Shown here: positions 3,336 to 29,243 of the stretch, piece after piece | Numbering within the stretch: the stretch's first letter is position 1 | Layout: every line of letters begins with the position of its first letter | IMG/VR virus record: IMGVR_UViG_3300007345_000067 | Coordinates: 1-47,278 of that record | Length of the DNA stretch: 47,278 bases | Source of the DNA: a virus | Strand: one strand, 5' to 3' | The notes under the pieces: generated by a model | Told to the model about the DNA's origin: nothing | Database searches by the model: none | What the model saw: the letters and a program-made list of their open reading frames with translations, nothing else | Position numbers and translations under genes: made by a program

Positions 3336-3352
3336 CACGAATTTCTTTCTTC

Positions 3353-3562: not shown

Positions 3563-5925
3563 GGTATGAATATATCAGACCCAGTGGTTGTGAAGATATG
3601 GAGGGTGTAGCCGGGTCTTGATGTAGTGTCTATTGTACCACCAATTCCTCTCTGCGGGCCTTTATATGCGATGATTACGATGCCCGAACCACCATCACCA
3701 CCATCGGCCTGACTAACGCCAGCTCCTCCGCCACCTCCACCAGTATTTACCGATCCATTTGCAGCTGGTGCGGTAGGTGTAGCACCATTACCACCGCCTC
3801 CTAGTCCACCAAAGTGGTATGTTGTGGTAGATGACGGATAAGTTCCAGTTCCGCCACCACCAGCATAGTAAGTAGAAGTTCCAGTAATTGAATATGCAAG
3901 ACCATCGCCTCCGTCAGCTCCCCCATCGTTAGCTGTAGAATCTTTTCCAGATTCTGAGGCTCCGCCTCCTCCTCCTGCGCCGCCAAATCCTACAGTTGCG
4001 ATTCCTCCAGAATTTCCCTGGCCAGAAACCCCAGAACTTCTTACGGAAGTATAGGAACTTCCACCTCCGCTCCCGCCATTTCCACCCACAGCAGGACTAG
4101 TAGATGGATAAGATGAAGTTCCTTTGCCATCGTATCCTCCTCCATATCCGCCGCCGATCGCTGTTAAATTATTAAAAATTGAGTTATTTCCATTTTCCCC
4201 AGATCTTTGTAAAGTAACATCATAATATCCACCAGATCCACCAGATCCAACAGTAACTTGAAGTTTTTTACCAGAAGATACTGGGTACGATGAGTGATAG
4301 ATAAGACCACCAGCGCCACCACCACCTCTTGGACCAGAACCAGTCGTACCTCCTGATCCACCACCTCCACCTCCACCACCAACTACAAGCACTTCGACAT
4401 TATAATCGGTTGCAGGATATCTGACGATTACAGTTCCATTAGCGCCGTTTCCAGAACTGGCATTTACTGAATTAACTCCTCCACTACCACCACCGCCAGT
4501 ATTTGGAATACCAGATACTCCTGGAAGAACTTGACTTCCTGTTTGGTCTGCAGGACCAGTTCCACCGCCTCCATTCCCTCCATTACCACCATAAACCGTT
4601 CCAGCACCACCGTACGACTGAGCCGCTCCCCCACCACCTCCAGCATAATAACTAGAAGTTCCAGAAATACTATATGCTAATCCAGAACCACCATCTCCCG
4701 CATAGTATGATGACGCTGATGCACCAGAAGATCCAGCTCCTCCTCCACCACCTCCAGTCCACCTATTACTACCTGAAATACCCGTACCTCCAGCATTACC
4801 TTGCCCTACTGTGCCACTCCCCCCATTGCCGTGATATGAGCCACCACCACCAGAACCTCCAGAATTTCCATTTCTCGGTGGTCCTACACTTGCGTTTTCA
4901 TTTCCACCATATCCCCCACCAACAGAAGTTAAAGAACCAAATACACTATTTCCTCCATTAGTTGCCTGTACTGTATCTGTTTTAGTTCCTGTTCCGCCAC
5001 CACCGACAGTAACTCCAATGCCAGTATTGGAATTTATTGTAAATGCAGAATTATAAAGCAATCCTCCTGCTCCGCCACCACCCCCAGATGTACCATTTCC
5101 GCCTCCTCCTCCACCAGCAACACAAAGTACTTCTACCTTCCCTTCCCCACCAGCACAAATGGGCGTGAAGGTGTTGGTGTAGGTGCCATAACGAACTTTC
5201 AAGGCGTCGTAGTTTTGTGCAACTTCTGCGGCGGATAGGGCACGGTTGTATACTTGAAATACTGATATATTTCCATCAAACCATTCACCGGATCTATCAC
5301 CATCAACATTTCCCAATCTTGCATTATTTAAATCTAAAATTGCAGGAACATTTTTTGTTGTACTAGAGTTAACCAATACGCCATTTATATACAATTTTAT
5401 TCCTACTTGATTGTCTCCAACCAATGTAATATTATACCAAGTATCAACAGAATAAGAAGTAGTAAGTTCTGTTCCTATAGCAAATCCAGCAAAAAGAGTG
5501 CTAGATGAATTTTGATAGTTTGTAGCAATACGAATATTACAAGTAACATCAGGAGTATCAAGAATATTTTGATATGCCGTAGAAGAGTCTATTTTAACCC
5601 ACGTAGATATAGTAGCTTGCCCACCACTTAAAGATATAGAGGTACTTGGGAAAGACACAGTTGAGCTTGTTCCATTAAATACTATACTTCCACCGCTAGC
5701 ATTATCATAACTGGCGGAGTTAATGGTTCCGTTGTATCCGTTCCCACTCAAATCAGTCCATGTTGTCCCGCTACTCGGATACGACCTCGGATCCCCAGCA
5801 TCAAGACTCAATACCAAGCCATCAGTAACTAACTCAGATGGGAATGTATGAATCCTATAAGGCCCAACACGCTTAATACTGCCTCCTTGGGCGCTGATTG
5901 TTCTAGGGCCGATGTGTTGTGACAT
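3559..5925 (-). CDS. LamG plus double glycine-rich adhesin (788 aa)
   Basis: Residues about 35-240 form a LamG-type lectin domain (LVLSLDAGD, TTWTDLSGNGYNGT, TISTWVKID, KLYINGVLV). Two long glycine-rich domains follow at residues about 262-502 and 508-754. Each opens with a VEVLxVxGGGGGG block, carries many GGxGG runs and closes with a hydrophobic strand (NGTVIVRY and SGIVIIAY). The last 35 residues form a short non-repetitive cap. Long glycine-rich domains of this kind are known to fold as packed polyglycine II helices in receptor-binding phage adhesins such as the gp38 protein of Salmonella phage S16. A role as host-recognition adhesin is therefore a good inference. It overlaps the downstream 69-residue gene by 4 bases. 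Confidence 0.8.
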   Translation of the reverse strand: MSQHIGPRTISAQGGSIKRVGPYRIHTFPSELVTDGLVLSLDAGDPRSYPSSGTTWTDLSGNGYNGTINSASYDNASGGSIVFNGTSSTVSFPSTSISLSGGQATISTWVKIDSSTAYQNILDTPDVTCNIRIATNYQNSSSTLFAGFAIGTELTTSYSVDTWYNITLVGDNQVGIKLYINGVLVNSSTTKNVPAILDLNNARLGNVDGDRSGEWFDGNISVFQVYNRALSAAEVAQNYDALKVRYGTYTNTFTPICAGGEGKVEVLCVAGGGGGGNGTSGGGGGAGGLLYNSAFTINSNTGIGVTVGGGGTGTKTDTVQATNGGNSVFGSLTSVGGGYGGNENASVGPPRNGNSGGSGGGGSYHGNGGSGTVGQGNAGGTGISGSNRWTGGGGGGAGSSGASASSYYAGDGGSGLAYSISGTSSYYAGGGGGAAQSYGGAGTVYGGNGGNGGGGTGPADQTGSQVLPGVSGIPNTGGGGSGGVNSVNASSGNGANGTVIVRYPATDYNVEVLVVGGGGGGGGSGGTTGSGPRGGGGAGGLIYHSSYPVSSGKKLQVTVGSGGSGGYYDVTLQRSGENGNNSIFNNLTAIGGGYGGGYDGKGTSSYPSTSPAVGGNGGSGGGSSYTSVRSSGVSGQGNSGGIATVGFGGAGGGGGASESGKDSTANDGGADGGDGLAYSITGTSTYYAGGGGTGTYPSSTTTYHFGGLGGGGNGATPTAPAANGSVNTGGGGGGAGVSQADGGDGGSGIVIIAYKGPQRGIGGTIDTTSRPGYTLHIFTTTGSDIFIP

Positions 5926-5931
5926 AGTAAC

Positions 5932-8900
5932 TCAGTTGGTGGATGGGATTTCTATTTCGAGAGGGTCAACGTCTACGCGCTCTGCATTGACCATGTAAAA
6001 ATAATCAAGAGGGCGAGAGTCTTCAGAGAAGATATATACTTTATTATTCTCTATTCTTTCAACCCTCGGCGCCCCACTTGGGCCTATGGGGGTTAGGGAC
6101 ACGGTGATTGAGTCAGGGTCGACCAAGGCCACCCAGTAGTCAGGAAGGGAAATAATTGTCTCGGTACTCCGGCCGCGTACATAAACACCATTTTCTGGGC
6201 CTTCAAGGGAGCCATGGCGGAGTTTGTATCCCTCTTTGGTTGGGTGGTCAATAATAAACGATTTAGTTGTTGCAGCGAATGACCCGTTTACTTCAAGGTT
6301 ATAACTTGGGTTAATAACTCCAATGCCGACTTTTTGCCCACCTGCTGATATGACAACTCTAGGATTAGAACCACCAGCATCAGCGTAAGATCCCATCATT
6401 TCAAACGCTGTGCTGTTATTCAAATATGATTCAATTACGGAGCAATGCGTAGAATCAAGACGAGAGTAAATTCTTGTAGCATATGTTGTATAATTACCTG
6501 CTGCCCTTAGTTGTAGTGAACCATCAACATCTAATTTTACTGCGGGGTTATCGGTGCCAATACCAACATTACCACCGCTTAATATTGTTAGTTTTCCAGT
6601 TCCAGATCCAGAAATATTTCCGCCTGTTCCTAAAATGAGTGTATCGGATGAGTTACCATACAGTATATAACCAGAATCAACTCTGTCTGAATCTCCAAAA
6701 AGTACGCCAGTATTTCCAGAGTCACTTGATATTATAGAAATATATTGACTATCTGATCCATATATTTGTAATTTTTGACTTGGATTATCGGTGCCGATGC
6801 CGACATTTCCAGATGAAGTTACACGAACTTTTTCTGTCACGTTTGGGCCGCCAGGCCCTCTAGTTCCTATCGTTAATGCTCCATTAGTGTCACTTGCGTT
6901 TTCACTGACTACAGCTATACCAGCATAACAAGAACTACCTGTAGTGGCAGAAACACAACCTAAAATTAAATTAGTATAACCACCATTTGTTGCATTATCT
7001 AAAAATGTATGTGTATGTCCATTAAAATTAGTTGGAGAATATGTAGTTGCATCATTTTTTCTAACAAAAAGTTTTATATTATATGTATTATCCGTTCCGA
7101 TACCAACATTGCCAGTTGAAGTTATACGAAGTGCTTCTCCAACTCCTCCAATATAAAGTCCTATAGTTGAACCTTGAAGACCATTTGGAGCATAAGCAGA
7201 AGTTACTCTGTTATAAGAAACAATCGCCTGAGCATTATTTGGATTGAACTCTAGTCCAGTAGAACCATTACTTACAACTAGTTTTCCCTCTGGATTATTA
7301 GTCCCGATGCCGACATTGCCAGAGGCAGCAATTCGCATAGCAGGAGCTATACCGTTGATGTTATCAGTTGCTCCGTTTGCTGTTGTGCCTGCGTTGACAG
7401 AAAAATCTATTTTATTATTTCCTCCACCACTATCACAAGCAATGATCAATCTATCTCCGCCTGCCTCGTATCCAAAATAACCAACGCCATATCCAGAAGC
7501 ATGAGTTACTAATAAAGCATCCCCTCCATTATCTGCTCCTATGGTTAAATGACGAGTACCAGTTGAACCACTATCCGTAAAATCACCAGCTGCGGAAAGC
7601 GTTCCTAAACGCACATTTCCTCCTACATCTAGTTTTTGTGCTGGGTTTGTGCTGCCAATGCCTACGTTTCCGTTTATATCAATTCGAACCTGCTCAGAAA
7701 GAACTTCTGATGTATTTGCAGTGTTAAAGGTTAAAGCAGAAGCATCTTGAGTACCCCTATCTACGGTATTAATTGCCGCAACTACTCTTCCTCTACCTGA
7801 GTTTTGGCCGCTATTTGATCTAAATGCTATGTTATGACCAATATTATTAGAGGTATATGATCCTGTTGCTGATTCTACAGATATGGCATAGTCTCCAGGA
7901 TCAGCTGATAACGTTGTTGATGAACTAAATGATCCTCCATATACATGTAATTTTGACGCCGGATTTATGGTGCCGATGCCGACATTGCCAGTTGAAGATA
8001 CTACTATAGGTGTTCTGGCATATGAACCATTTACATCGTATTGATTTATTCCAAATGAACCTGTGCCGCCGCCGCCAGATCTGTCGTTGACACTAACACT
8101 AAGATTTCCACTGTTATCATCACTAGCAAGTTCAATCCAATTATATCCACCAGAAGATACTTGTAATCTTGCTGCAGTAACAGCAGAAGCACGAATATCT
8201 ACTTTTTTTATTGGATTATCAGTGCCAATGCCGACATTACCAGTTGAAGTTATACGAAGTCTTTCATCACCATTAGAATATAACGTAGTAAAATACGTTC
8301 CAGAACTATTATCTGCACCCATTCTTACTTCGCCAGTAGAAGTATTTGCGGAAAATACCGCTACTTGACCAGCACCACCGCCAGTCCAGTTTATAGCATA
8401 TTTTGGAACTGTTCCTCCAATATCTGTAGATAATCTTATATTTCCTTCTTCTATTTCTAATTTTTCTTGTGGATTATCAGTCCCGATGCCGACATTTCCA
8501 TCTTGGGATATTGTTACTGCCTCAATTTGAGACCCTTCTTGATTATCAGAAAAAATAGACAACGAGTTATTATTCCCAAGACGACCCCCCATATACTTAA
8601 TGGAGAATCCATATGCAGCAGAATCGGATTCTCCATCATGATCTAGTACACCCTCACCATCAACTCTCAATAATGTAACATTATTGTCGCCACCACCAGC
8701 ACCAACACGGATTGCAGTGCCGTTGTGTTCACTTATAAGACGAATGGTGGATGCTGATGTTTTTCCGAAGTCAAGTGTGTATTGTGGGTCAATGGTGCCA
8801 ATACCAACTCTGTTTGTGTCCTCGTCGATAAATAACGTTCCGCTATCAAAGTTTACATCACCACCTGTCTGGGTCAATCCACCACCATTAATCCTCAGAC

Positions 8901-8964
8901 TAGTCGAGGTGTTTACACTCTCGGGGATAAAGATTGCGTCTACGTCGTTGCCGATATATGCCAT
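5932..8964 (-). CDS. Long tail fibre with ten VGIGT repeats (1010 aa)
   Basis: The protein carries ten copies of a repeat centred on GNVGIGTDNPxxKLxV, with variants such as RVGIGTIDP and QKVGIGVINP, spaced by stretches of about 50-130 residues of beta-rich sequence. Such repeats are typical of trimeric phage fibre shafts. The final 105 or so residues form a distinct domain with SFIIDHPTKEGYKLRHGSLE and then PENGVYVRG and LPDYWVALV. I recognise this as a conserved C-terminal domain of cyanophage fibres; it is not the S74 self-cleaving chaperone. The next gene, the 788-residue adhesin, begins 6 bases downstream. It probably forms an elongated fibre with a C-terminal folding or attachment domain. 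Host binding is inferred. Confidence 0.82.
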   Translation of the reverse strand: MAYIGNDVDAIFIPESVNTSTSLRINGGGLTQTGGDVNFDSGTLFIDEDTNRVGIGTIDPQYTLDFGKTSASTIRLISEHNGTAIRVGAGGGDNNVTLLRVDGEGVLDHDGESDSAAYGFSIKYMGGRLGNNNSLSIFSDNQEGSQIEAVTISQDGNVGIGTDNPQEKLEIEEGNIRLSTDIGGTVPKYAINWTGGGAGQVAVFSANTSTGEVRMGADNSSGTYFTTLYSNGDERLRITSTGNVGIGTDNPIKKVDIRASAVTAARLQVSSGGYNWIELASDDNSGNLSVSVNDRSGGGGTGSFGINQYDVNGSYARTPIVVSSTGNVGIGTINPASKLHVYGGSFSSSTTLSADPGDYAISVESATGSYTSNNIGHNIAFRSNSGQNSGRGRVVAAINTVDRGTQDASALTFNTANTSEVLSEQVRIDINGNVGIGSTNPAQKLDVGGNVRLGTLSAAGDFTDSGSTGTRHLTIGADNGGDALLVTHASGYGVGYFGYEAGGDRLIIACDSGGGNNKIDFSVNAGTTANGATDNINGIAPAMRIAASGNVGIGTNNPEGKLVVSNGSTGLEFNPNNAQAIVSYNRVTSAYAPNGLQGSTIGLYIGGVGEALRITSTGNVGIGTDNTYNIKLFVRKNDATTYSPTNFNGHTHTFLDNATNGGYTNLILGCVSATTGSSCYAGIAVVSENASDTNGALTIGTRGPGGPNVTEKVRVTSSGNVGIGTDNPSQKLQIYGSDSQYISIISSDSGNTGVLFGDSDRVDSGYILYGNSSDTLILGTGGNISGSGTGKLTILSGGNVGIGTDNPAVKLDVDGSLQLRAAGNYTTYATRIYSRLDSTHCSVIESYLNNSTAFEMMGSYADAGGSNPRVVISAGGQKVGIGVINPSYNLEVNGSFAATTKSFIIDHPTKEGYKLRHGSLEGPENGVYVRGRSTETIISLPDYWVALVDPDSITVSLTPIGPSGAPRVERIENNKVYIFSEDSRPLDYFYMVNAERVDVDPLEIEIPSTN
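5932..8964 (-). repeat. Ten-copy VGIGT-coding repeat inside the long fibre
   Basis: At DNA level the plus strand shows recurring blocks such as GATGCCGACATTGCCA and near variants through 6300-8850, one per protein repeat. They are conserved enough to allow recombination between copies. Confidence 0.7.
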
Positions 8965-13657: not shown

Positions 13658-14086
13658 TCAGTTATAGGTAAATGTATCCATTACAAATGTAAGCTCTAGA
13701 GTCGATACGTTTGTAGATGATCTGTCTGCCTGACCAAAGTTCAGTGATGTAATCTGAGCATCGGGAACTGTAATTGTTCTATTGCCAAGTGGGCTTGGAT
13801 CTTCACCGCAGCTGACAGGAGTCACTGTAAGGGTGATATATGAACAATCGTATGTCTTCCAGAAGTCAACAATATCGGCGTGCTTTTCTGGGTCGAAAGG
13901 AACAGAAAGAGTTACTTCAGCAAGAGTACGAGGACCCTTGAGCTGGAAAATACGACCTCTTACACCGTCGGCATACTGTGTAGTACCAGAGGTGTCTCTG
14001 ATTCCAGAGAAAGTAGTGAAGTAGTGCTGGAAGGGGGAAGCCTGGATCCAGTACTGGGCTTGAGTAATTGGCTTATATGCTAACAT
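13658..14086 (-). CDS. Probable tail tube protein (142 aa)
   Basis: A 142-residue protein in the size range of myovirus tail tube subunits. It begins MLAYKPITQAQYWIQASPFQ and ends with two long beta strands (TSLNFGQADRSS and STLELTFVMDTFTYN), the pattern expected for the tube fold in which beta strands line the inner channel. FKGPRTLAEVTLSVPFDPE-like central strands (LKGPRTLAEVTLSVPFDPE) precede a VDFWKTYD helix. A GTTTAAAT element lies 43 bases upstream, so it likely starts its own transcript. It is placed on the opposite strand and 11 kb from the sheath gene, which is unusual. Identification is by fold-like pattern and size, not a unique motif; a baseplate or neck protein is the alternative. 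Confidence 0.55.
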   Translation of the reverse strand: MLAYKPITQAQYWIQASPFQHYFTTFSGIRDTSGTTQYADGVRGRIFQLKGPRTLAEVTLSVPFDPEKHADIVDFWKTYDCSYITLTVTPVSCGEDPSPLGNRTITVPDAQITSLNFGQADRSSTNVSTLELTFVMDTFTYN

Positions 14087-14137: not shown

Positions 14138-16024
14138 CTATTGGAAATAGGGATCAAACCATCTCCAGTAGCCTTTGGACTCTGGGTCAAGTGTTACTGC
14201 TTCTCTATGAACTGCGTATCTATTAAGTCTGAATACGCTGTGATATAACTTCACGAGATCAGAAGAATCCTCTTCCGACAAACTCTCCTGCTCGATAAGT
14301 GCTTTAAATCTTTGTAATTCTGTCTCATGCTTAGACTTAACCGCTTGAGCTTCTGGAGGAATCCGGCGAAGATTTCTGATCTCTTCAAAGAACCTATCGA
14401 TGACAAACACAATCTCACCTGGAGATGTAAACTCATCAATATCAAGCTTAGAGATCGCCATCTCATCGCCAGTGGAGTCTGTAACAATACGCTGGAATCC
14501 AACGTCATCAAGACTGCCCTTAAAGTTAGAAGCAATCGTCTGAGAGATTTTTTGTTTTTCAGATGGCTCTTCAAAGTCAAACAACTTCATGAGCTCTGAG
14601 CCAAACTCCATGTCTTCCGCCATTGGAGCCTCTTCCTCGCCATCTGGAGCCGGAGCAGCTCCTCCGTCCATAGGCGGCATCATACCTCCCATCATGCCTC
14701 CTTCTGGCATTTCTTGTTTTACCAGAGAAGGAATATTGAGTTTTTCTCTGAGCCAATCTACATCTTCGATTTGGTAACCAAGTGCTCCTAGCTGAGACAG
14801 AACTTGTACCATACGTACTGGATCTTCACGTTGTTTAAGATCTTCGAAGTTACGGGCCAATCGAGGAGGGTTTTTGCCAGGATAGTTGAGCTCTACGATC
14901 CAGCGAACTAATGTTGAGTTAATTGTTTCATCAAGCTCTTCAGAGAACGCCTTGGCTTTACGCATGCGCACTGAGTCGGCGATTTGATCGCGGGCAAATG
15001 AGCCAACACTTCCCGTCTCTTGGCCAACTGTTGTTTCGCCATTGATTACAAAGCTAATTTGCTGATCAATGTAGCTGATTAACTGATTATATAGTTCAGG
15101 GCGGCCGTTGCTCTCCAACCACTGAATATCCATCTCATCGGGAAGGACTACCGCGGTCTCTTGACCAAGACGCTGAAGAGCCGTAAATAGAGCATTTACT
15201 TCTTCTTCTGGAGTGCCAAGGCTGAACTTACCTACCGCGGTTGGGGTGGTATGCTTATCGGCGTATTGCAGCCAGAAATTGAGCAGTGTTCTTCTGAACT
15301 CAACCAGTGGGTATAATTGCCTACCTAACCCTGAGCCATGAACATCCATGAAGTTGCTATAGGCCCAGTGCCTATGCATAATCATTGAGCGAAGCGGAAT
15401 ACCCATGCCCTCCACCGGCGAGAACATAGTAATCAATCTTGGGCTCACTGTTCCGTCTTCGTTGAGTCTGAAAAGGAACCTACGTGGGTCACGGACTTTA
15501 ATCTCAGAGGGCACGATGTATTTGCCCTGTCTCATCCAGCAAATCTCACTCACGGCCATACCGAGAATAATTGATTCGCACATTCCGCGGATAAACGTAT
15601 CAAACCCTGAGTTTGCCGCTACTAATGATTCTTTGCCGTATGACTGCCGAGTATTACTACCCATGCGGTTAATCACTTGGCGAACGAACTCTGCTACTTC
15701 CTCATCTTCTGAGGAGTCAGAGGCGGGATATACCTCCCACGGTCTCTGTACAATTTCACCGATGAGCTTTTCCCAGGCCGCAAGAATTTGGCTGTCATTA
15801 AACAGCCTCATGTATTTCTCAATAGCCCTAGGGCCACCACCACCTTCTTCTAGAAGGATATCATCTCTACGCGGAAGGACTACTCCGTTAGTGAGATAAG
15901 GCGCACCTGAGTAGGAATAAGGATCAGACTTATATCCAGCCAGGTTGCCTTGAGAAACGCCCAGGGAAAAATACCGGTCGAAAAACCCAGATTTTATGTG
16001 TCTTTGGGGATTTTCAGAGCTCAT
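14138..16024 (-). CDS. Portal protein, Mu gp29 / DUF935-like (628 aa)
   Basis: The first 450 residues match the character of the DUF935 portal family. LFNDSQILAAWEKLIGEIVQ lies near residue 75, then FDTFIRGMCESIILGMAVSE, then a long helical region. INGETTVGQETGSVGSFARD near residue 330 corresponds to the family's glycine-rich QT block, and is followed by LVRWIVELNYPG. Twelve portal subunits form the DNA gate at the head vertex and bind the terminase. Beyond residue 450 is a Met/Pro/Gly-rich linker (MMGGMMPPMDGG) and an extra helical C-terminal domain of about 150 residues. It follows the small gene ending at 16041 after 16 bases. The call is firm at family level; no terminase gene is visible in this window. 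Confidence 0.8.
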   Translation of the reverse strand: MSSENPQRHIKSGFFDRYFSLGVSQGNLAGYKSDPYSYSGAPYLTNGVVLPRRDDILLEEGGGGPRAIEKYMRLFNDSQILAAWEKLIGEIVQRPWEVYPASDSSEDEEVAEFVRQVINRMGSNTRQSYGKESLVAANSGFDTFIRGMCESIILGMAVSEICWMRQGKYIVPSEIKVRDPRRFLFRLNEDGTVSPRLITMFSPVEGMGIPLRSMIMHRHWAYSNFMDVHGSGLGRQLYPLVEFRRTLLNFWLQYADKHTTPTAVGKFSLGTPEEEVNALFTALQRLGQETAVVLPDEMDIQWLESNGRPELYNQLISYIDQQISFVINGETTVGQETGSVGSFARDQIADSVRMRKAKAFSEELDETINSTLVRWIVELNYPGKNPPRLARNFEDLKQREDPVRMVQVLSQLGALGYQIEDVDWLREKLNIPSLVKQEMPEGGMMGGMMPPMDGGAAPAPDGEEEAPMAEDMEFGSELMKLFDFEEPSEKQKISQTIASNFKGSLDDVGFQRIVTDSTGDEMAISKLDIDEFTSPGEIVFVIDRFFEEIRNLRRIPPEAQAVKSKHETELQRFKALIEQESLSEEDSSDLVKLYHSVFRLNRYAVHREAVTLDPESKGYWRWFDPYFQ

Positions 16025-16235: not shown

Positions 16236-17176
16236 AGTTCTTGTTCTTTGTGAATAGATTGATATAGAGCTTTGTATTTTTTCCTCCAAGCCTCGTCGTA
16301 TTTTCTGACGTACTTGAAGTAGTTCTTTTCCCAGGTTTCTTTGTTATAGAGATCTTTATACTCTTCTGGGACTGTTTTAGCAAAGAGTTTTAATTCGATC
16401 GCGATGATAGCGCTGATAAAGTCTCCGCGTTTTGAAATGATTTGCTTCTTCAAAAGATCGAGAGGAATATGGGAACATTGTTCCTTAACAACTCTAAATA
16501 AAGGGGAGTTGAACAAATCGGAGTTCTTCTCTTCTTTTTCCTTCTTTATGGTTTCTTCGTAAGCATTGTCTAGAATGCTTCCCATGAACGTCGAGTTAAA
16601 TTCAACATCATTGCCATCATTGATCTCGCGCCAGAATTTTTTAAATGACTCGTATCCGCGAACAATTGTTAAATGGGAGTAAGACTGGAGCTTTTGTCTA
16701 ATCTCTCTTTTTGCTGCGTCAGCATAATGCATATCTTTGCCATCCGGCCAAAAAGTACTTCGTTGAGCCAAAGAGTTTGCCCAAAGAAACGTGGTAAGAA
16801 GTTTCTTAGTCCTAGCGTCTCCTAGGTCTTTTTTGGGAAGATCATCAATGTCCTTAATTGCTTTCTTCCACTCATAGAAAACATCAGAAGCTTTATTTTC
16901 TGATGCCTGCCAGACAGGTGTTTTTGAAAGCTTTCCGATATGAGTCTCGTCTAGTTCGCCATAGCCAGTGAGTTCGTTTACAAGTACATCATCTTCTGAA
17001 AGACTTTGGTTTGTAATTATTTTAGGCTTGGCAGAATTTTTTATATGAGCATTAAACTCAACAACCCATTTTTCATGAATGAGCTGTTGCTCTAGTTTCC
17101 ATTTGTCGTGGGCAAGGATTTTATCTAACGCTGCTTCAGGCAGGTTGCATAGCGCTAGGATCTCCTGAGTTTGCAT
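16211..17176 (-). CDS. Unknown protein upstream of portal (321 aa)
   Basis: A 321-residue protein, mostly helical and rich in Lys, Glu and Trp, starting MQTQEILALCNLPEAALDKI. Repeated KW motifs (HDKWKLEQ, HEKWVVEF, YEWKKAI, KETWEKNYFKYV) suggest a helical bundle rather than an enzyme. There are no nucleotide-binding or catalytic motifs that I can see. Its start overlaps the upstream 158-residue gene by 41 bases. By position, in the same operon as the portal, it could be a packaging, neck or portal-associated protein, but it does not look like a terminase (no Walker A or nuclease residues). Function unassigned. Confidence 0.7.
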   Translation of the reverse strand: MQTQEILALCNLPEAALDKILAHDKWKLEQQLIHEKWVVEFNAHIKNSAKPKIITNQSLSEDDVLVNELTGYGELDETHIGKLSKTPVWQASENKASDVFYEWKKAIKDIDDLPKKDLGDARTKKLLTTFLWANSLAQRSTFWPDGKDMHYADAAKREIRQKLQSYSHLTIVRGYESFKKFWREINDGNDVEFNSTFMGSILDNAYEETIKKEKEEKNSDLFNSPLFRVVKEQCSHIPLDLLKKQIISKRGDFISAIIAIELKLFAKTVPEEYKDLYNKETWEKNYFKYVRKYDEAWRKKYKALYQSIHKEQELWKKELTS

Positions 17177-17612
17177 TAGTTTCTAACTTACGAAATTTTA
17201 CGTCTATATAGCTCATTATATCACGATAGTTCCAGCAATTGTCAATTTTTCTAAAAAGTTTACTATCGACTCTTCCGAGATCCATGCCTAATGTCAATAA
17301 GTTGTTAAGGCTGTCCCAGCAATTACTTCCCGGTTCGTCAAACAAGAATACCATTTTATCATCTTCAACTTCTTGGCGCTCGATTGCATTCAGGACAAAA
17401 AACAAACTTGAAAGAGTAATTGTGTCCCACCCAGCAAAAACAATAAAGTCCGAAGATTTAATAGTTGCGTCAGTTACCGACTGACGAGTCTTTACCTCAA
17501 TTCCTTCTCTTTCTGTCAAAATTTGCTCAAGATGCACGGCCATCTTATTGAGGTCAGATGTAGCATCTACAGATTTTGCTTTGATAATAGTTACAGAGAT
17601 TTTGGCGGGCAT
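17136..17612 (-). CDS. Unknown Rossmann-like protein (158 aa)
   Basis: The sequence alternates beta strands and helices: IKSSDFIVFAGWDTITLSSL, then KMVFLFDEPGSNCWDSLNNL, then NCWNYRDIMSYI. This arrangement of hydrophobic strands ending in small or acidic residues resembles a Rossmann or LOG/SLOG-type nucleotide-binding fold. I cannot identify the catalytic signature and would not assign an activity. It is the first gene after the GTTTAAAG element at 17634-17641, 29 bases upstream, so it heads the operon leading to the portal. An unusual cytoplasmic-type protein at the start of a morphogenesis operon deserves structural comparison. Confidence 0.65.
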   Translation of the reverse strand: MPAKISVTIIKAKSVDATSDLNKMAVHLEQILTEREGIEVKTRQSVTDATIKSSDFIVFAGWDTITLSSLFFVLNAIERQEVEDDKMVFLFDEPGSNCWDSLNNLLTLGMDLGRVDSKLFRKIDNCWNYRDIMSYIDVKFRKLETNANSGDPSAMQPA

Positions 17613-17633: not shown

Positions 17634-17641
17634 CTTTAAAC
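17634..17641 (-). promoter_or_regulatory. GTTTAAAG element for portal operon
   Basis: Minus-strand copy in a 62-base divergent gap, 29 bases from the ATG at 17612. It is back to back with plus-strand copies at 17647. Confidence 0.6.
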
Positions 17642-17646
17642 CTAAA

Positions 17647-17661
17647 GTTTAAAGTTTAAAA
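17647..17661 (+). promoter_or_regulatory. Tandem GTTTAAAG/GTTTAAAA elements for 1285-residue gene operon
   Basis: Plus-strand GTTTAAAG (17647-17654) overlaps a second copy GTTTAAAA (17654-17661). The ATG follows 28 bases after the first copy begins. Confidence 0.6.
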
Positions 17662-17674: not shown

Positions 17675-20600
17675 ATGCTATCTGCATTAACTCTGAAGCA
17701 AATAGAGGCGATTACCTCAAACCTTCCTAAAATCATTAAGAGCTCTTTTGATGCGTATGAGTCAATTAACGGTAAGTTCAGCGTTAGTGTGCAAAGAAAA
17801 ACATATGAGGATATATACTACGATTTTTTCTCCTCTATAATTAAAAGAATTGAAAGAGAAGATGCCATTACAATACTGCCACTTTATGATAAATTGGCGT
17901 ACATGCTCGTCAACTTACAATTTAATGTAAGGCTATTTGTAGAGCTTACTTCTATAGTAGAAAAGGCAATTCTAGAGCTTACTATTAATAGTAATACACG
18001 TAATAGTCAACTAGAGCAGTTTGTTGAGACTTATATTGATAAAGTTATAAGTGCAGTTGCAGAGGAAAGAATTTTTCAAAAAGGGTTAGAAGCGGATCAG
18101 CTTATTCAACTTGTACAAGAATACGCACCTTCTTCGGTTGTAATAGAAGACACATTTAGATCCACTGACATAGATCATAGAACTATTTATCCTTTATTTG
18201 ATAGAAATAACTATTGGGAAGTTCAAAAAGAAAACTATGAAAACTTTGGCAGAGATAAATATTCTACAAGGGAAGTAACAATATACCAAGGTAAAGTATA
18301 TACGCTCAATCAAAATGTTTCAAAGCCTACAACTAAGGAATTTAGCCTGGATGAATGGGGCGAGTTTAGTTCAAAATTCTTATTGAAAAGTAACACTTTT
18401 CAAGAAAAACTTAAGTCAAACTTAAAGACTTATATTAATAGCTCGTTGGAAAATGTAGAAGACATAAATGGGATTATTTCTGACTCAAAAATCCAAGAGA
18501 AAAACAGCGTAATAACATACGACAAAGAAGATCTTAAGCTTACATTTGCTGGAGAAGGAGCTTCTATTACTGAAAACATCCTAAAATTAAAGACTCTTAT
18601 TAAATATTTTGGAAACCATGAAGCTTCGCCAGTAGGAAATATTGACTATATATCTAGATATTGTGAATACCTGTATGGGTCACTTTATGGCAGAATCATA
18701 GGAAATGGCTTTACGAGCCTTGACGGTTTTAACCTTTTAGGAAAATTTAATTTACTATTTTCTTATGGAGAAAAAATAAATAGAATTGCTGGGCTAAAAT
18801 TCTTAGAAAGTTTTAAGTCTTTAAAATCTTTTAAGCAGCGTATTACGCTGCCAGAAACAATCACGTTAACTAGTACAGATAAGAAAATTTATTCAAAAGC
18901 AAAATATAATCCTATCTACGCAAAATACTGTAATGGAATTGAAGATAGATTCTTCTTCCAAGAAATAAACCCGTACGTTGAAGCTATTGATGTTGATATC
19001 ATTCTCTTCGGAATAGAAAGACTTTTGAGCGTTGCGAATAGACTAGGTGATACTATCAATGCACTAAAGAGTAGTCTTAGTCAACAAGGTATATTACCAG
19101 GTTACGAAGGCCTTGGCCCCATCTCAATACAAATTGAAGAGCTAAGTAATATATTCATTTCCACAACAGAATTAGAAGAAAGTTACGCCAATTCAAAAAT
19201 TCTTCCTGGATTTAATGGAGCAATGGCAGGTCTTTTAAGATCTTATGGAAGGCTGTCTGATGTATTAATTACTCCTCCTTTGACAGGTAGTGCCTTGGCA
19301 AGATTAAGCTTGTGGGGGAGAAAAATTCAAGGCGTATTAGAAAGAATAGTATCTGACATCAGTATCATAAACTATGCTCCTGGAGACTTCATCCCAAACA
19401 TTTCCTTTAAAAAATCTACATTAGAAAGAGAAAAGCTTATTGATCAACTAAGATCTCTTAATTTTCAAGAAAGCGAAATTGATCTTTTTCTATCTGCCGA
19501 GACTTTTGAAGAGTTACTTATAAAGTTTGCACCTATTACCGATGCCGCGGACCAACTCTCATTCTTTAGAGGATATGAACTATCTCAGTTGATTTATGAG
19601 TTTGGCGGAGAAAGCGCAATTGACGCGTATATTTCTTATCTTTATGACTTTAGTGAGTCAAACTTAATAAACTTATTAACGTTTGCAACTAAAGATAAAA
19701 CTTCTGGTGTTACTTTTAATGAAAATCGCTATGGCAAATTGGTAGGTTTGCTGATTAACTTAACCTTTGCAATTAATCCAGATCAGCTAATATTATTTAA
19801 AGACTATTTAGCAGGAAATGACCTAGATCTATTTGAGTCTATTACCTACCTTCTTAAGAATAAAGAAGTTAATCTTTTATTAGACAAAGATAGTATAGAT
19901 CTTCTTCGTCCTATTACGGAGTCTTTGATTTCTGGTGCGTCTCCATTTGGATATAACTCCAGGTCTATGGGCTATGCAGAAATAAATAGAGAAGTGCCAC
20001 TTGCAGTGAAAAAATGGACAGAGCTTATTGGAAAAAATCTAGGAAATGCTTCTACGAATCTTATTCAGAACCTATATGATAAGAGTCAGGGACTAACTCC
20101 TAGAGAGTTAATTACAATTTTAAACACAGGCTCAGAGCATAATCATAATGACTATGGTCAGCTCATTGATGGGTACGAGGGCGGAAGATTAACTAAGCTA
20201 ATCAATTATGGATATCTTAGTGGCTTACTTCATAAACTAGGATATTACTCAAATTCTTATCAAATAAATAATTTTTATATTTCTGGATCTGGGCCAATAA
20301 GACTGGACTCATTAGTAGGGGTAGTAAGAAGCTTAGTTTCTTTAACAGATATTACTTTAACAAACTTTACCAACTCTATTGAGTATGACTTAAGCCAAGA
20401 TTCGGTTGACTTATATCCATTTGAAAACTTATTTAATACTCAAAACAAGAAAATTGAAGAAGTTTCTAAGTTAGTTAAAGGGCTTTCCCCTTCAAATGGA
20501 GACATTTCTACGATAGGACTTCCAACTGTGTCTGGGTTTTCAGACATCATGGGGTCACCTGGTATTGGAAATTCGCCTGTTCCAGAGTCTATACCGAGAG

Positions 20601-21532
20601 AAAATACCATAACCCCAGAACAAGCTAACTTACTTTCTCCTCAAATTAAAAATTGTTTTTCGTTTATTGCAAATAAAACCTCAGAAGATGAGAGATCAAA
20701 TGAAGTTACAAATAGATTTATTAGCTTTATTGAAGAAAATAAATTGATCGTTGGAGTTTCCGCAAAAGAAACAATTATTGAAGCTAACTCAAATACTTTA
20801 AAAGCAATAGATAAAATTAAAGATTTTAAAGCTCCAAAAGCGCTAGAAGATAAAGACAGAAACGCGGATGTTAAGATCCCCTCTTTCTATGAAGGATCTA
20901 GGCTACAAGATAAAGTTAGCCAAGAAGAGATTGACTTGTTACAAAGTCAAGGCCTATTAACCAAATTTGATCCAGTGAGCTCATGTAAAAGATTTGGAGG
21001 AGAAAATTGCGATTCAAGAATAGAATCAGGAGTTAACTTATGTGGTGATATTAATAATAGATCTACTTATTCACAGAGAGACACAACTCCAAGCCAAGTA
21101 TCTCAACCTGGATCTATAGGAGTAGATCGTCCTTTTGGATCTTTTGCGGAACTCAAGCCTGAAGAATTATTTTTACCCTATAGTCAAAATAACAAGCCTC
21201 CATATTTTGCTTTGCTGGGTAACGACGTTAAAATAAGCAATAACGGCAATCCAATTAAGCCATCTATTGATACAGAGCCACTGGTCTTTACAAAAGAACC
21301 TAACGTAGATGACTCTTTATACTCTTCGTATTATAACTCGGAATACGGATTAATTGAGGCCATCAAAGCGAAGTGGGAAAAAGACGAGCCGTTTAAATGT
21401 TCTTTATTAGAAGATCCGTATGCCTACCAAGCTTGCATGAACTTATTAAAATGCAAAAGATTTAAAAGAGGAGAAGGTACGTCATTCTTAAAATTCTGTC
21501 CTAAGACGCTATCAGGAGGATTATTAAAATGA
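17675..21532 (+). CDS. Very large unknown probable virion protein (1285 aa)
   Basis: The longest gene in the window. It begins MLSALTLKQIEAITSNLPKI and is rich in Ile, Leu, Asn and Ser, with alternating helical segments throughout. It shows no membrane segments and no long heptad coiled coil, so it does not look like a tape-measure protein. A repeated loop with LPGYEGLGPI and LPGFNGAMAG occurs near residues 475 and 510. The C-terminal 200 residues carry several cysteines (CKRFGGENCDSR, NLCGD, CSLLEDPYAYQACMNLLKC, FCPKT). It starts 28 bases after a GTTTAAAG element and overlaps the next gene by 4 bases (ATGA). A baseplate or internal head protein is possible; I recognise no family. Confidence 0.75.
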   Translation: MLSALTLKQIEAITSNLPKIIKSSFDAYESINGKFSVSVQRKTYEDIYYDFFSSIIKRIEREDAITILPLYDKLAYMLVNLQFNVRLFVELTSIVEKAILELTINSNTRNSQLEQFVETYIDKVISAVAEERIFQKGLEADQLIQLVQEYAPSSVVIEDTFRSTDIDHRTIYPLFDRNNYWEVQKENYENFGRDKYSTREVTIYQGKVYTLNQNVSKPTTKEFSLDEWGEFSSKFLLKSNTFQEKLKSNLKTYINSSLENVEDINGIISDSKIQEKNSVITYDKEDLKLTFAGEGASITENILKLKTLIKYFGNHEASPVGNIDYISRYCEYLYGSLYGRIIGNGFTSLDGFNLLGKFNLLFSYGEKINRIAGLKFLESFKSLKSFKQRITLPETITLTSTDKKIYSKAKYNPIYAKYCNGIEDRFFFQEINPYVEAIDVDIILFGIERLLSVANRLGDTINALKSSLSQQGILPGYEGLGPISIQIEELSNIFISTTELEESYANSKILPGFNGAMAGLLRSYGRLSDVLITPPLTGSALARLSLWGRKIQGVLERIVSDISIINYAPGDFIPNISFKKSTLEREKLIDQLRSLNFQESEIDLFLSAETFEELLIKFAPITDAADQLSFFRGYELSQLIYEFGGESAIDAYISYLYDFSESNLINLLTFATKDKTSGVTFNENRYGKLVGLLINLTFAINPDQLILFKDYLAGNDLDLFESITYLLKNKEVNLLLDKDSIDLLRPITESLISGASPFGYNSRSMGYAEINREVPLAVKKWTELIGKNLGNASTNLIQNLYDKSQGLTPRELITILNTGSEHNHNDYGQLIDGYEGGRLTKLINYGYLSGLLHKLGYYSNSYQINNFYISGSGPIRLDSLVGVVRSLVSLTDITLTNFTNSIEYDLSQDSVDLYPFENLFNTQNKKIEEVSKLVKGLSPSNGDISTIGLPTVSGFSDIMGSPGIGNSPVPESIPRENTITPEQANLLSPQIKNCFSFIANKTSEDERSNEVTNRFISFIEENKLIVGVSAKETIIEANSNTLKAIDKIKDFKAPKALEDKDRNADVKIPSFYEGSRLQDKVSQEEIDLLQSQGLLTKFDPVSSCKRFGGENCDSRIESGVNLCGDINNRSTYSQRDTTPSQVSQPGSIGVDRPFGSFAELKPEELFLPYSQNNKPPYFALLGNDVKISNNGNPIKPSIDTEPLVFTKEPNVDDSLYSSYYNSEYGLIEAIKAKWEKDEPFKCSLLEDPYAYQACMNLLKCKRFKRGEGTSFLKFCPKTLSGGLLK

Positions 21533-22353
21533 GAATATTTACAAGCTTTCTAATAGACGACCCAAATGTAACATTATTGCCTTTTGATAAAAGGCAAAGA
21601 AACCCATTTAATCACGTTACTTTTGCCCAGGAAGATATTATTTCAAATGACGAAGTAATGCTCTATAAAGAAAAAACAAACTCTATGGGGGTATCTATAC
21701 AAACTTCAGGTATTGAGCCAATTAAAGAGTTAAAACTTACAAACCAAAATATTCTAACCTGGGATGATTTGTGGATTGATGCGGATAGTAAGTATAGCGT
21801 AGATCCTAAAATTGAACATATAAATCTTCAAAGAAACTCGTTGTTATACGCAAATTTTAATCTCAAAAGAGACTTCTTAAAGTCAATCAATTTAGAAGGT
21901 AATTCTAGTCTCAAGTCATTTATTGGCCCAGAACTAAAAAATCTTGAAGTGCTTAACTTAAATCAATGCGTTAGTCTAGAGTATGTAAACTTGGGGATTT
22001 CTAAGAACATTAGAGTATTGAGTTTAAAGAATTGTAGGCTTACAGAAGCGTCTATGGAAAGAACGCTTTCGTCGTTTATTCCTACAGTAACTGCTTCTTC
22101 AAATCTATTGCCGGGTTCACTGCCCCCGTTCAGAAAAAACTACTCGACTCTTTTAGATTTGCGTGGCAATGATATTAACTGGGGAAATACGCGAATTGCT
22201 TCAAAGATAAGACTCTTAGTAACAAATAACTGGCTCGTGCTATGGGATAATCCGCCCCCAACAAGTGTAATCCCAATTCAAATGTACGCATTCTTCCCTA
22301 AGAACATAAAAGAAACAGAAATCAATCAATACTATGGCAGACCTTCGATCTAA
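21529..22353 (+). CDS. Leucine-rich-repeat-like protein in virion operon (274 aa)
   Basis: Residues about 90-190 form successive leucine-rich units: IEHINLQRNSLLYANF, KSINLEGNSSLKSF, LEVLNLNQCVSLEYVNLG and IRVLSLKNCRLTEASM, followed later by LLDLRGNDINWG. The xLxLxxNxL spacing is the leucine-rich-repeat pattern, which makes a curved surface for protein contacts. The N-terminal 80 residues are not repetitive. The start overlaps the 1285-residue gene by 4 bases and its end overlaps the 310-residue gene by 20 bases, so the three are one transcription unit. Leucine-rich repeats are uncommon in phage virion operons. A role in protein-protein contact inside the particle or with the host is inferred. 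Confidence 0.7.
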   Translation: MRIFTSFLIDDPNVTLLPFDKRQRNPFNHVTFAQEDIISNDEVMLYKEKTNSMGVSIQTSGIEPIKELKLTNQNILTWDDLWIDADSKYSVDPKIEHINLQRNSLLYANFNLKRDFLKSINLEGNSSLKSFIGPELKNLEVLNLNQCVSLEYVNLGISKNIRVLSLKNCRLTEASMERTLSSFIPTVTASSNLLPGSLPPFRKNYSTLLDLRGNDINWGNTRIASKIRLLVTNNWLVLWDNPPPTSVIPIQMYAFFPKNIKETEINQYYGRPSI

Positions 22354-23266
22354 ATTTATTGAGGACTACGCCGGAGGATTACTTAACGTCTCCAGGCAAG
22401 AATTGGCCAGTACAGGAGAAGTACTTTCTCAGGATGGGTTTCTTTCTAACGCGGCTCTATTTGTAGAAGATGGATCAGGGACAAAGAGTGGTTTGCTCTT
22501 AGGGGCCTCACTTTGTGAGGTAGTGGATCCTACAACAGACCAAGGAGCTGTGAATGTAAGATACGCGGATAGAACGTATGCTAGTATTCGAGATCTAAAG
22601 ATTTTTTCTACGGCAATTGCTTCTGCTCAAGCGGCTCTATCCGATGCTACTTCTACGTCAATCACAAACCTAGAAAATGCTTTTGAGCTTCTTGAAAATG
22701 CATTTGATGGATTACAAAATAGCGTTGATACAAGAAATGCGCTAATTGACTCTAAGATAGAAGAAATTAATACAGAAAGCTTAACTGCTCAAGTTTCTGA
22801 ACTATCAACATCGCAAAAAAATCTAGATGCTCAAATTGCAAGTCTAAGCACCGTTATACAAGCAAGTTTTGCTCCGACTCAGAATATACGAGCTATTTTG
22901 CCGATGCAGTTTGAAAGTTATGGCGCTGTAGAAAGTCTTACAGTAAACACAGTGGCAAATCGTTTTAGAACTTCTGGAAGTTATACAATTACTGGTTTAA
23001 CAAGTACAAACGGTACTGGATTAAATATTACAGCTGACGTTGATAGCGACGGATTGCTAACAGTGACAGGGATTACAAGTGGCGGAAGTAACTTTGTCGT
23101 TAATGACCGTGTGGTAATTCCAGATTCAAGTCTTGGTGGTGGTGGAGCAGATCCTGTTACTTTAACGGTTGCAACCATTATAGAATCAACTCCGATTGAC
23201 AAACTTGTTCCTCAGGTCCAATTGCTAATTGAAAAAGTAAACGAAATTTTGACAGCTTTTTCCTAG
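22334..23266 (+). CDS. Coiled-coil fibre-like protein (310 aa)
   Basis: The N-terminal 75 residues include a GLLLGASLCEVVDPTTDQGA stretch and VNVRYADRTY, similar to fibre N-termini. Residues about 85-180 are a heptad-rich helix (ATSTSITNLENAFELLENAF and TESLTAQVSELSTSQKNLDA) that should form a trimeric coiled coil. The C-terminal part is beta-rich with a glycine run (LGGGGADPVTLTV) and ends in a helix. It closes the operon beginning at 17675 and meets the oppositely oriented 114-residue gene tail to tail with a 4-base overlap at a CTAG. A short fibre or baseplate spike is the best guess. Confidence 0.7.
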   Translation: MADLRSKFIEDYAGGLLNVSRQELASTGEVLSQDGFLSNAALFVEDGSGTKSGLLLGASLCEVVDPTTDQGAVNVRYADRTYASIRDLKIFSTAIASAQAALSDATSTSITNLENAFELLENAFDGLQNSVDTRNALIDSKIEEINTESLTAQVSELSTSQKNLDAQIASLSTVIQASFAPTQNIRAILPMQFESYGAVESLTVNTVANRFRTSGSYTITGLTSTNGTGLNITADVDSDGLLTVTGITSGGSNFVVNDRVVIPDSSLGGGGADPVTLTVATIIESTPIDKLVPQVQLLIEKVNEILTAFS

Positions 23267-25904: not shown

Positions 25905-28900
25905 ATGGCTAATCCTGTAAACATCAATGTAGGCGCTATTCAGCGCCCTGGAGTGTTTGTTACTCAGTCTTCGACTGGTGGATTACCTCAACCCCTAGCC
26001 TCTCATGCTATTGGTTATATCTTTGGATCTACTCCTGTAGACCCATATGATGAAAATCCCGTCGATGAGTATTCAGCTCTCCCTCCTTACCAACCTACAC
26101 AGATTGGTTCGTTAGAGGATTTTGTTCAGAAAGCTGGTGGTGCTCCTACCGCCGGTAATAACCCACAATCAATGATCTCCTACGATTCCGTAAGAGCATT
26201 CTTTGAAAACGTGGGCGTGAACGGAATTCTGTACTATACTCGCGTAACACCTACACCTGAAACTAAGGTTGTAGTAGATAAAGGAGCAGGTTGGAACCTG
26301 TTCTCAATCAAGATTGGCGACAGATACTTTGGAGATAAGTCACTCGGCATTAATGATGCGGATGGCGTAGAAATCAGAGTAATTACAACCACCGCCCTTG
26401 ATTCTAATGATAATGCTTTTGATATTGTAGGATATCTTAAGCAAGACGATCCTGACTTCAATACTTTCTACAGAATTGAGCAAGATGACGAAGAAGCCAA
26501 AAACGCCACCTTCAGAATCTACTCTAAGGACGTAAGAGTTATCCCAACTGTTCAGAGCTTCAAGGCATATCAGATTTCTGATACCGCTTATGCAACTCCA
26601 ACAGATGCCGGTGAAGTAAGCCGTTATGTCCCAACCAAAGAACTCAACTTCCGTTGTGTTTCTAGAGACGTAACAACCCAAGAGCCCATTCTCTTTGTCT
26701 CTGGTGCTGCAATTGGTAACTTCTTAGAAGAAACCTCTGTTACAGCCAAGACAAACGGAACTGCTTCATTCACAGCCTCTACCGGTGCCGTAGTAGTGGA
26801 AGATATTACCGATCTTTCGATTGGTACTGATGCTCTTGCCGCTGGTGATAAGGTCGTATTTGAAGGTATTGACCCAGGTCAAGTTGCTTATCCTGGAGCT
26901 GGTGAGCTTGCTGCTGGAAATATTTTCTACAGCACTGTTTACGAGGTCTTAAGTGTAGATGCTCCCAATAACTCCTTTATTCTTGACAACGGATCAGGTG
27001 CCGCTTTAACCTTCACTTCTGATGATCTTGCTTCGGTAATCAGAGTACGTAGACTAGCTTATGATCCTTCGGTTCTTGCCGACAACCTCCAAGCTGTTGA
27101 AGATTTCCTTCTTGATCAGGAAACCTATGCAACTGCTGGTGACATTCCCGACAACAAAATTGTAGCCGTTTCTACCGACGAAAGAGTTGGTAAAGATGAC
27201 CACATTCGCTGGGCTGACTCATTTGCAGCTTACTATCAGTGGGATGCTTCTGGATCTGCTTTTACCGCCGGTGCTGATGGCTCTGGTCTAACTGCTGCTC
27301 CTCAAGGAACAATCACTTCTGTTGGTGGTAACGTAACCAGAACAGGATATGTACCCGATAGCGTTCAGGTCTTCTACGTAAACGTTGCTGGTGAGAACAG
27401 AGTTGTTATTGCCAATGGCGCAACTCCTGCTGAACTTACCGAAAGCATCTCTACTTCACTCAGAGAGATCCTCGAAGAGAAGAACCTCGATGCATATTAC
27501 ATCGTTGAGTCTGTTGAAGTTGATTATGAAACCGCTCTTGGAGTTGGTGGATATGCTCCTAACAACGGTGAAGCAATCGGAACAACTCTTGGAGTAACCG
27601 GTGCTCCTGCTCTCCGCCCATCTAGCGAAGGCAAGACCCTAACTGGAACTTCTGCAGTTACCTCTGGTAGCACAACCATTCAAGGCGCTACTTCCTCTCA
27701 AACTGGAACAATTGAGATCCAAGCCAATGGCTCACTTCTCGGTTCTAGCACTGAGTTCCTTAGCGTAATTGCTCCTGGATACAGAATCCTTGTTGGATCT
27801 GATACCTACGAGGTTGTAAGTGTTGCTTCTAACACTCAGGCAATCGTCCGTAATCCTTCTGGAGCTACCGTAGCCTCTGGTACTTCATACAGCACAGTTG
27901 CTACTAAGTTCACCGAAGAGCTTTATGCCGGTTCACACGTTGTGATCAACGGCTACCGCTTTGAGGTCAGCAGCGTAACCAACGACGCAGCTTTCGTTGT
28001 TGATACCGCTCCTACCTTTACCGCAAGTTCAACTATAGTCTATCTTGATAGCTCAATCAGCAATGGTTTCTATCGTCATGACTATGTTCTCAGAGTGAAG
28101 ATCACTTCTAAGAACGGTATTCCTTCTCCTGTTGTTCCTGGCCTTAACCGCTATGGTCAAAAGGATGCCAATATCGTCAGAATCAACTCACTCGATGAGG
28201 CAGCTGATTTTGCCAACTACAAGCTTTCTGCTAAGGCTCATTCACAAGACTTTGTCTATGCTATTGAGCAGGGTATGGGATCTGGTGATTATCGCCCTGG
28301 CTTCCTCTTTGCCCCTGAGGCATTTGGTGGATTTAAATCAGCAGTCGGTGGATTAAGCAAGACTCAGGCCCGTGAAGAAAGAGTAAAAGTTACTCAGGCG
28401 CTCCTCAGAGCCGCTGAAGGTAAGCTTGGTGAGGTTGAGGGTATCTCTGGTACTCAACATATTGCTCTTATCGATTGCGGAGCTGATGAACTAAGTCTCA
28501 GCGAAGTACAAGATGAGTTAGCTTACATTAAGGGAATTGCTGGAGCTCCATTTGGCCACGCTGCCTTCTACGCTCCTTATATCAAGAACGCTGCTGATCG
28601 CTTTGTACCACCTAGTGGTTTCATTGCCGGTATTGCTTGTTCAAGATACGTAAACGAAGGATTCCAACAAGCCCCTGCTGGTGCAAGATATCCGCTAAGA
28701 GGAGCCAATGCCCTCCGCTTTGATATCACCGCTCAACAGCAAGAAGTAACATATCCTCTAGGCCTCAATCCAATTAGAAGCCTTCCTAACAGAGGTATTG
28801 TTGCATGGGGTGCTCGTACAACTAGCTCCAATGCTCTCTTCAAGTTTGTCAACACTCGTGCGATCCTTAACGTACTCCTTGATGTTCTTGCAAGAAGCTT

Positions 28901-29243
28901 CGATGATATCCTCTTTGAGCAAATTGATTCGGCCGGTACACTCTACGCCAGAGCGAAGTCTATTGCCACTCAGGTAATGGGTCAACTCTATCGTCAGGGT
29001 GCGCTCTTTGGCGCAAGACCAGAACAAGCTTATCTAGTTGTTTGTTCTGATGCTAATAACGCTGTTAGTGATCTAGAAAACGGAACGCTTAGACTCGATG
29101 CTTATGTGGCCACATCGCCAACTCTTGAGCGTCTTGTTGTTACCGTTGTAAGAACACCTGCTGGTCAGGTTGCTCAGGTACAAGATACCTTCTCTAGAAA
29201 CATTGACAGATTCGACTATCTTCTTAACGCAACTACAGTCTAA
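25905..29243 (+). CDS. Tail sheath protein (1112 aa)
   Basis: The contractile sheath subunit. The N-terminus (INVGAIQRPGVFVTQSSTGG) leads into the IGYIFGSTP strand typical of sheath proteins. The C-terminal domain carries the family pattern: RGIVAWGART, then FKFVNTRAILNVLLDVLARS, then QVMGQLYRQGALFG, then VVCSDANN. At 1112 residues it is longer than T4 gp18 (659) because of beta-rich insertions between about residues 270 and 700 (threonine/alanine-rich, for example GTSAVTSGSTTIQGATSSQT) that probably decorate the tail surface. Two upstream promoter-like elements are present, TATAAATA at 25843-25850 and GTTTAAAG at 25858-25865. Codon use is more C-ending than in the neighbouring 1285-residue gene, in line with high expression. 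Confidence 0.92.
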   Translation: MANPVNINVGAIQRPGVFVTQSSTGGLPQPLASHAIGYIFGSTPVDPYDENPVDEYSALPPYQPTQIGSLEDFVQKAGGAPTAGNNPQSMISYDSVRAFFENVGVNGILYYTRVTPTPETKVVVDKGAGWNLFSIKIGDRYFGDKSLGINDADGVEIRVITTTALDSNDNAFDIVGYLKQDDPDFNTFYRIEQDDEEAKNATFRIYSKDVRVIPTVQSFKAYQISDTAYATPTDAGEVSRYVPTKELNFRCVSRDVTTQEPILFVSGAAIGNFLEETSVTAKTNGTASFTASTGAVVVEDITDLSIGTDALAAGDKVVFEGIDPGQVAYPGAGELAAGNIFYSTVYEVLSVDAPNNSFILDNGSGAALTFTSDDLASVIRVRRLAYDPSVLADNLQAVEDFLLDQETYATAGDIPDNKIVAVSTDERVGKDDHIRWADSFAAYYQWDASGSAFTAGADGSGLTAAPQGTITSVGGNVTRTGYVPDSVQVFYVNVAGENRVVIANGATPAELTESISTSLREILEEKNLDAYYIVESVEVDYETALGVGGYAPNNGEAIGTTLGVTGAPALRPSSEGKTLTGTSAVTSGSTTIQGATSSQTGTIEIQANGSLLGSSTEFLSVIAPGYRILVGSDTYEVVSVASNTQAIVRNPSGATVASGTSYSTVATKFTEELYAGSHVVINGYRFEVSSVTNDAAFVVDTAPTFTASSTIVYLDSSISNGFYRHDYVLRVKITSKNGIPSPVVPGLNRYGQKDANIVRINSLDEAADFANYKLSAKAHSQDFVYAIEQGMGSGDYRPGFLFAPEAFGGFKSAVGGLSKTQAREERVKVTQALLRAAEGKLGEVEGISGTQHIALIDCGADELSLSEVQDELAYIKGIAGAPFGHAAFYAPYIKNAADRFVPPSGFIAGIACSRYVNEGFQQAPAGARYPLRGANALRFDITAQQQEVTYPLGLNPIRSLPNRGIVAWGARTTSSNALFKFVNTRAILNVLLDVLARSFDDILFEQIDSAGTLYARAKSIATQVMGQLYRQGALFGARPEQAYLVVCSDANNAVSDLENGTLRLDAYVATSPTLERLVVTVVRTPAGQVAQVQDTFSRNIDRFDYLLNATTV

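Follow-up and report, generated by a model that had tools for sequence, protein, structure and literature searches.

S-TIM5-like viruses are reported to be widespread in the sea and to lack the structural genes common to other cyanomyoviruses and T4 (PMC4928673), which leaves the S-TIM5-like particle made of proteins without assigned roles. The closest described systems to the locus studied here are found in S-TIM5, S-TIM54, S-TIM61 and S-TIM66 (genus Aurunvirus). These sequenced phages already contain the three genes that concern us, termed A, B and C below, and their role is unexplained there. In S-TIM5 they are AEZ65672, AEZ65671 and AEZ65670; the same genes, in the same order and orientation and with the same portal and deaminase flanks, occur in the other three phages and in the window, by which we mean the whole stretch of viral DNA that was analysed (a record of 47,278 bases). 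The gene order of the window matches that of all four phages, and its DNA is about 72% identical to theirs over 53-55% of an 8-kb query around A-B-C. The three genes and their main neighbours are as follows; head protease and capsid genes are also found among the neighbours of the block.

17675..21532, plus strand: gene A, open reading frame of 1285 aa, homologue of S-TIM5 AEZ65672 ('virion structural')
21529..22353, plus strand: gene B, open reading frame of 274 aa, leucine-rich-repeat (LRR) protein, homologue of S-TIM5 AEZ65671 (UniProt H6WFU6)
22334..23266, plus strand: gene C, open reading frame of 310 aa, putative modular fibre protein, homologue of S-TIM5 AEZ65670 ('virion structural')
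13658-14086, minus strand: tail tube gene near the A-B-C block
14138-16024, minus strand: portal gene near the A-B-C block
25905-29243, plus strand: sheath gene near the A-B-C block

An earlier note on this DNA had described a block of three unrecognised virion proteins of 1285, 274 and 310 residues at 17675-23266, and open reading frames of these lengths lie exactly there on the plus strand. The block is AT-rich, as the note had it, with a GC content of 0.350 vs 0.414 for the window, which places it in the lowest 5% of same-size stretches. The proteins do have known matches, however: each is homologous to an S-TIM5 gene, and the S-TIM5 homologue of B is named an LRR domain-containing protein in UniProt. 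Homologues in the four S-TIM phages share 45-51% identity with A (full length) and 63-69% with B, while C is 42% identical to its S-TIM5 homologue over its length and 82-91% identical to the proteins of the S-TIM phages over its first 121 residues. In the GenBank records of S-TIM5 and S-TIM54/61, A and C are labelled 'virion structural' and B 'hypothetical', so that the description as virion proteins stands for A and C and does not carry over to B. Because A and C belong to no recognisable family, the S-TIM5 label is unlikely to be derived from homology, which suggests that it comes from experimental detection, presumably particle proteomics.

Relatives were collected by scans of IMG/VR, and we counted distinct loci holding all of A, B and C. 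The gene order and strand proved to be the same in 62/62 distinct loci (the window's own copy counted), all with homologous A, B and C, and the window's trio stands beside the portal cluster as a member of the S-TIM5-type (Aurunvirus-like) structural module. A and B overlap by 4 bases (ATGA), an overlap present in 54 of the 62 distinct loci, and B and C by 20 bases. By identity to the window's A the loci fall into a close (46-56%), a middle (31-36%) and a distant (27-30%) group, the last having a mostly shorter A of 1023-1070 aa. All three genes are under purifying selection between the window and the relative L006 (dN about 0.16-0.34, dS about 1.5-1.8). Mean pairwise identity is higher for B (0.51) than for A (0.37), and the pairwise identities of A and of the C N-terminus correlate (r 0.89), as they would also do through shared descent. 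In one record near-identical to the window, IMGVR_UViG_3300006810_000304 (L005/L026/L029/L053), A is split into 902 and 334 aa by either a sequencing error or a real lesion.

Gene C and its exchangeable tips

Gene C can be divided into three parts.

22334..22696, plus strand: near-invariant N-terminal 121 residues of C, putative attachment domain (dN contrast, family identity)
22697..22888, plus strand: predicted coiled-coil shaft of C, about residues 122-185 (weak family matches, Pfam coiled-coil matches)
22889..23263, plus strand: exchangeable tip of C (unrelated tip classes in the family)

Between the window and L006, dN is 0.043 in the N-terminal 121 residues vs 0.605 in the rest of the protein, and the mean pairwise identity of the N-terminus across the family is 0.73. 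A search for this N-terminus in other cyanophages returned none, even at E 10. The earlier note had called the 310-residue protein a coiled coil, which is correct for about residues 122-185 and incorrect for the remainder; in this part the family weakly matches coiled coils, several of them from trimeric fibres and spikes. The coil is followed by tips of no fewer than seven unrelated classes; two members consist of the N-terminus with the coil only. One member of the middle group (L077) bears a tip of a distant-group class, a single cross-clade exchange from which C tips appear to move among lineages.

The tips of several relatives match known fibre parts. Peptidase_S74 terminates C in two relatives, L004 and L023 (E 2.5e-14), other tips match tail-fibre PHROGs and still others the tail-fibre or tail-pin ends of T4-like cyanophages. 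The C of S-TIM54 has a Peptidase_S74 end, whereas an S74 domain is absent from the window's own C, whose tip class matched nothing outside the group in profile searches. Two of 45 C relatives match a wedge PHROG, only via a shared tip. With its fixed N-terminus, coiled coil and exchangeable C-terminus, the C family thus resembles Peptidase_S74 (endosialidase-type) tail fibres, two members carrying S74 itself, but the window's C is unlike these fibres in being only 310 aa long and in lacking S74. Based on the invariant N-terminus, the coiled coil, the swappable tips and the S74, tail-fibre and tail-pin matches of relatives, C is, as judged from its sequence, a modular fibre. A separate cluster at 3-8964 of the window (minus strand) encodes large fibre-like proteins with Laminin_G_3 (lectin-like), glycine-rich and tail-fibre matches, and therefore the main fibre is probably not C.

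The LRR protein B and the helical protein A

The conserved parts of B and A are listed here.

21811..22080, plus strand: LRR solenoid formed by four 22-residue repeats in residues 95-184 of B (alignment of 61 sequences; model)
22129..22296, plus strand: cap at the C-terminal side of B (residues 201-256), highly conserved in the alignment
20984..21499, plus strand: C-terminal part of A, where seven cysteines are near-invariant in the alignment (residues 1104, 1112, 1123, 1242, 1254, 1260 and 1275)

The 274-residue protein had been described as LRR-like, and B indeed has a genuine LRR fold. Its motif is LxxLxLxx[N/C]xL, with N103, N125, C147 and C169 exactly 22 residues apart, and this N/C ladder and the flanking leucines are near-invariant among the 61 aligned sequences. 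A structural model of B, for which two phage-record sequences were left out of the input, has a mean pLDDT of 84.8 and strands every 11-12 residues. The best 50 VIA structural matches of this model are all LRR proteins (Z 10.7-11.8, rmsd 2.6-5.5), as is the best Foldseek match (E 4.8e-3). Several Pfam LRR profiles match relatives of B weakly (best E 0.0029), while the window's own B matched none of them. B is close to 22-residue bacterial, internalin-like LRR proteins, with which it shares the motif, the 22-residue period and, by structural comparison, the curved solenoid; unlike these proteins, it has only four canonical repeats, set between an N-terminal beta part and a C-terminal cap peculiar to the family, and it lacks family membership at the sequence level.

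Mean column conservation in B is highest in the cap (0.80), followed by the repeats (0.62) and the N-terminal part (0.44). The gene is single-copy in 8/8 records checked, and a search of the phage collection found no B relative beyond the S-TIM phages. Because B is conserved above A, its ladder is fixed and its cap is highly conserved, we read B as a probable adaptor or assembly factor and not as a receptor-binding part. The B proteins of the S-TIM phages are extended by a tail of some 100 residues, rich in Pro/Ser/Thr, which is missing from the window's B; in S-TIM54, S-TIM61 and the contig L016 this extra tail has Gly/Tyr at its end, and B is equally long in S-TIM5 and S-TIM61. Tails rich in Pro/Ser/Thr/Gln were noted at L004:11568-12713, L016:7001-8134, L003:11545-12663 and L013:7001-7963, three of them ending in Gly/Tyr, and the window's B stops ahead of such a tail.

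The model of A (residues 86-1285) is mainly helical, with a mean pLDDT of 67 and about half of it below pLDDT 70; it is confident up to about window residue 580 and mostly of low confidence after that. Structural comparison returned helical-bundle matches of low meaning only, for example to membrane and pore-forming proteins. Among solved and viral folds the model matched only the S-TIM5 homologue (BFVD), which does not prove a new fold. Each of the seven cysteines in the C-terminal part is kept in 95-100% of 55 aligned relatives across all groups, and this conservation suggests metal binding or disulphides. By eye, residues about 200-230 of A (window 18272-18364) contain a 'VTIYQGKVYTLNQN...P...W' pattern like that of small carbohydrate-binding modules, and the part flanking this stretch is missing in the distant group.

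We also considered A as a baseplate wedge, hub or tape-measure protein and rejected these assignments, as neither the window's A nor distant-group members gave a profile match, including against tape-measure profiles. In T4-type baseplate wedges with peripheral fibres (gp7-gp8-gp9-gp10), one operon encodes a large protein followed by smaller and fibre-like ones. The layout of the A-B-C operon may be likened to this set, a resemblance that implies no homology; unlike the T4 wedge set, A, B and the window's C had no match to wedge, hub or other baseplate proteins in PHROGs, Pfam and PDB sequences.

Proposed assembly and its alternatives

On balance we lean towards the view that S-TIM5-like cyanomyoviruses use A-B-C, as a late and translationally coupled operon, to build a single accessory fibre assembly of the particle. 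The S-TIM5 proteins that resemble tape measures (AEZ65739, AEZ65701) and baseplate wedges (AEZ65712, AEZ65740, AEZ65700) are encoded in clusters other than A-B-C, which argues that the trio is an extra, group-specific piece of the particle. According to our working model, C would be a short fibre, probably trimeric in view of its coiled-coil similarity, whose near-invariant N-terminus docks on the particle, with the coiled coil as shaft and the exchangeable tip presumably touching the host. A would be part of the particle, serving as a large platform or arm of helical build whose C-terminal module is rich in cysteines, and would most likely carry C by docking through B; B would act as an LRR adaptor bridging A and C, or as an assembly helper. 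It is rather doubtful that this represents a new type of fibre assembly, in which an orphan helical A carries a swappable trimeric C through an LRR adaptor that is itself in the particle, used by a wide and mostly uncultured cyanophage lineage.

The function of B admits two further explanations. It is quite conceivable, if somewhat short of probable, that B is a chaperone dedicated to the assembly of A and/or C and absent from the virion, given the 'hypothetical' label of B beside the 'virion structural' labels of A and C in the S-TIM5 and S-TIM54/61 records, its strong conservation and its single copy; mass spectrometry can miss small proteins, however, and the Pro/Ser/Thr-rich tail ending in Gly/Tyr in some relatives would be unusual in a chaperone. 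The earlier note had instead proposed an undescribed baseplate or host-contact assembly, and a baseplate complex whose LRR protein is itself the host-recognising part seems very unlikely to us. LRR folds do often bind proteins, and the operon contains a fibre, but B is conserved above A with a near-invariant core, N/C ladder and cap, and such constancy of the cap and the repeats speaks against a role of B in receptor binding, whereas parts that recognise the host, for instance the C tips, are variable and exchanged. Host contact is probable for the tip of C.

The proposed baseplate location was not borne out either, as the S-TIM5 wedge and tape-measure genes are in other clusters and the block is near the portal, which makes the neck or head equally possible. 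A neck, collar or capsid site for the fibre assembly (as whiskers or head fibres), in place of the baseplate, is a reading that we entertain only tentatively: the operon adjoins the portal and tail-tube cluster, at a distance from the wedge- and tape-measure-like genes of S-TIM5, but where a gene lies does not determine where its product sits in the particle, there are sheath and fibre genes close by as well, and the C tips of relatives are similar to the tail fibres and tail pins found in other cyanophages. We consider it improbable that A has nothing to do with the fibre and is instead an internal or ejected protein, with B and C tied to it by late timing only, since the gene order is unbroken in all three clades and A and B are coupled by the 4-base overlap, even though a largely helical orphan with a cysteine-rich end would suit such a protein. 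In the accessory fibre reading that we prefer, the trio would be one constant piece of the S-TIM5-like particle and a concrete, testable fibre with swappable tips. LRR proteins are uncommon in tailed phages, and the trio points to a particle or assembly role for one of them.

The upstream motif and further observations

The region ahead of A contains two copies of GTTTAAAG in inverted arrangement.

17647..17654, plus strand: GTTTAAAG, located 28 nt upstream of the A start codon, candidate late-promoter element of the A-B-C operon
17634..17641, minus strand: GTTTAAAG (inverted element), candidate late promoter of the divergent gene at 17136-17612

Together with the 4- and 20-base overlaps, the plus-strand copy agrees with the coupled late-type operon that the earlier note had proposed. 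For the 21-base inverted element (17634-17654), 0.02 chance occurrences are expected at up to 3 mismatches, and it is retained in relatives whose A is 33% identical. Seven further sites lie in the window at 3335, 9668, 16062 and 24784 (minus strand) and at 24802, 25858 and 32689 (plus strand); 9 of the 11 GTTTAAAG copies of the window are correctly oriented and 28-53 nt upstream of a start codon. In the S-TIM5 stretches examined (L002, L196, L197), 22 of 30 copies are correctly oriented and precede an annotated start by 8-80 nt, against an expected fraction of 0.029 (binomial P 9e-28); the motif was first chosen by eye in sequences of the group, so that this test is post hoc, but the enrichment far exceeds what that selection could explain. 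Across the window sites and the S-TIM5 loci, GTTTAAAG lies 26-57 nt ahead of start codons, mostly of virion genes. We therefore regard GTTTAAAG as a strong candidate for the late-promoter motif of the S-TIM5-like group.

A T4-type late promoter, TATAAATA, was considered before A and is absent there, and generic sigma-70 and terminator scans gave matches no commoner than in shuffles. Members of the distant group (L120, L124, L127, L130, L135, L151) have no GTTTAAAG pair upstream of A and share a common GTTGAAAGC-type element instead; judging from these elements, the motif may have diverged between groups. The S-TIM5-like group encodes a SigF-like sigma factor (AEZ65704).

Two other features of the window were noted. 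The tail sheath (25905-29243) has 1112 aa, about twice the usual size, and its general sheath-family match is confined to the region near residues 885-1092. Ten tRNA genes are located at 41072-47276 on the minus strand, five of them tightly arrayed at 46867-47276.
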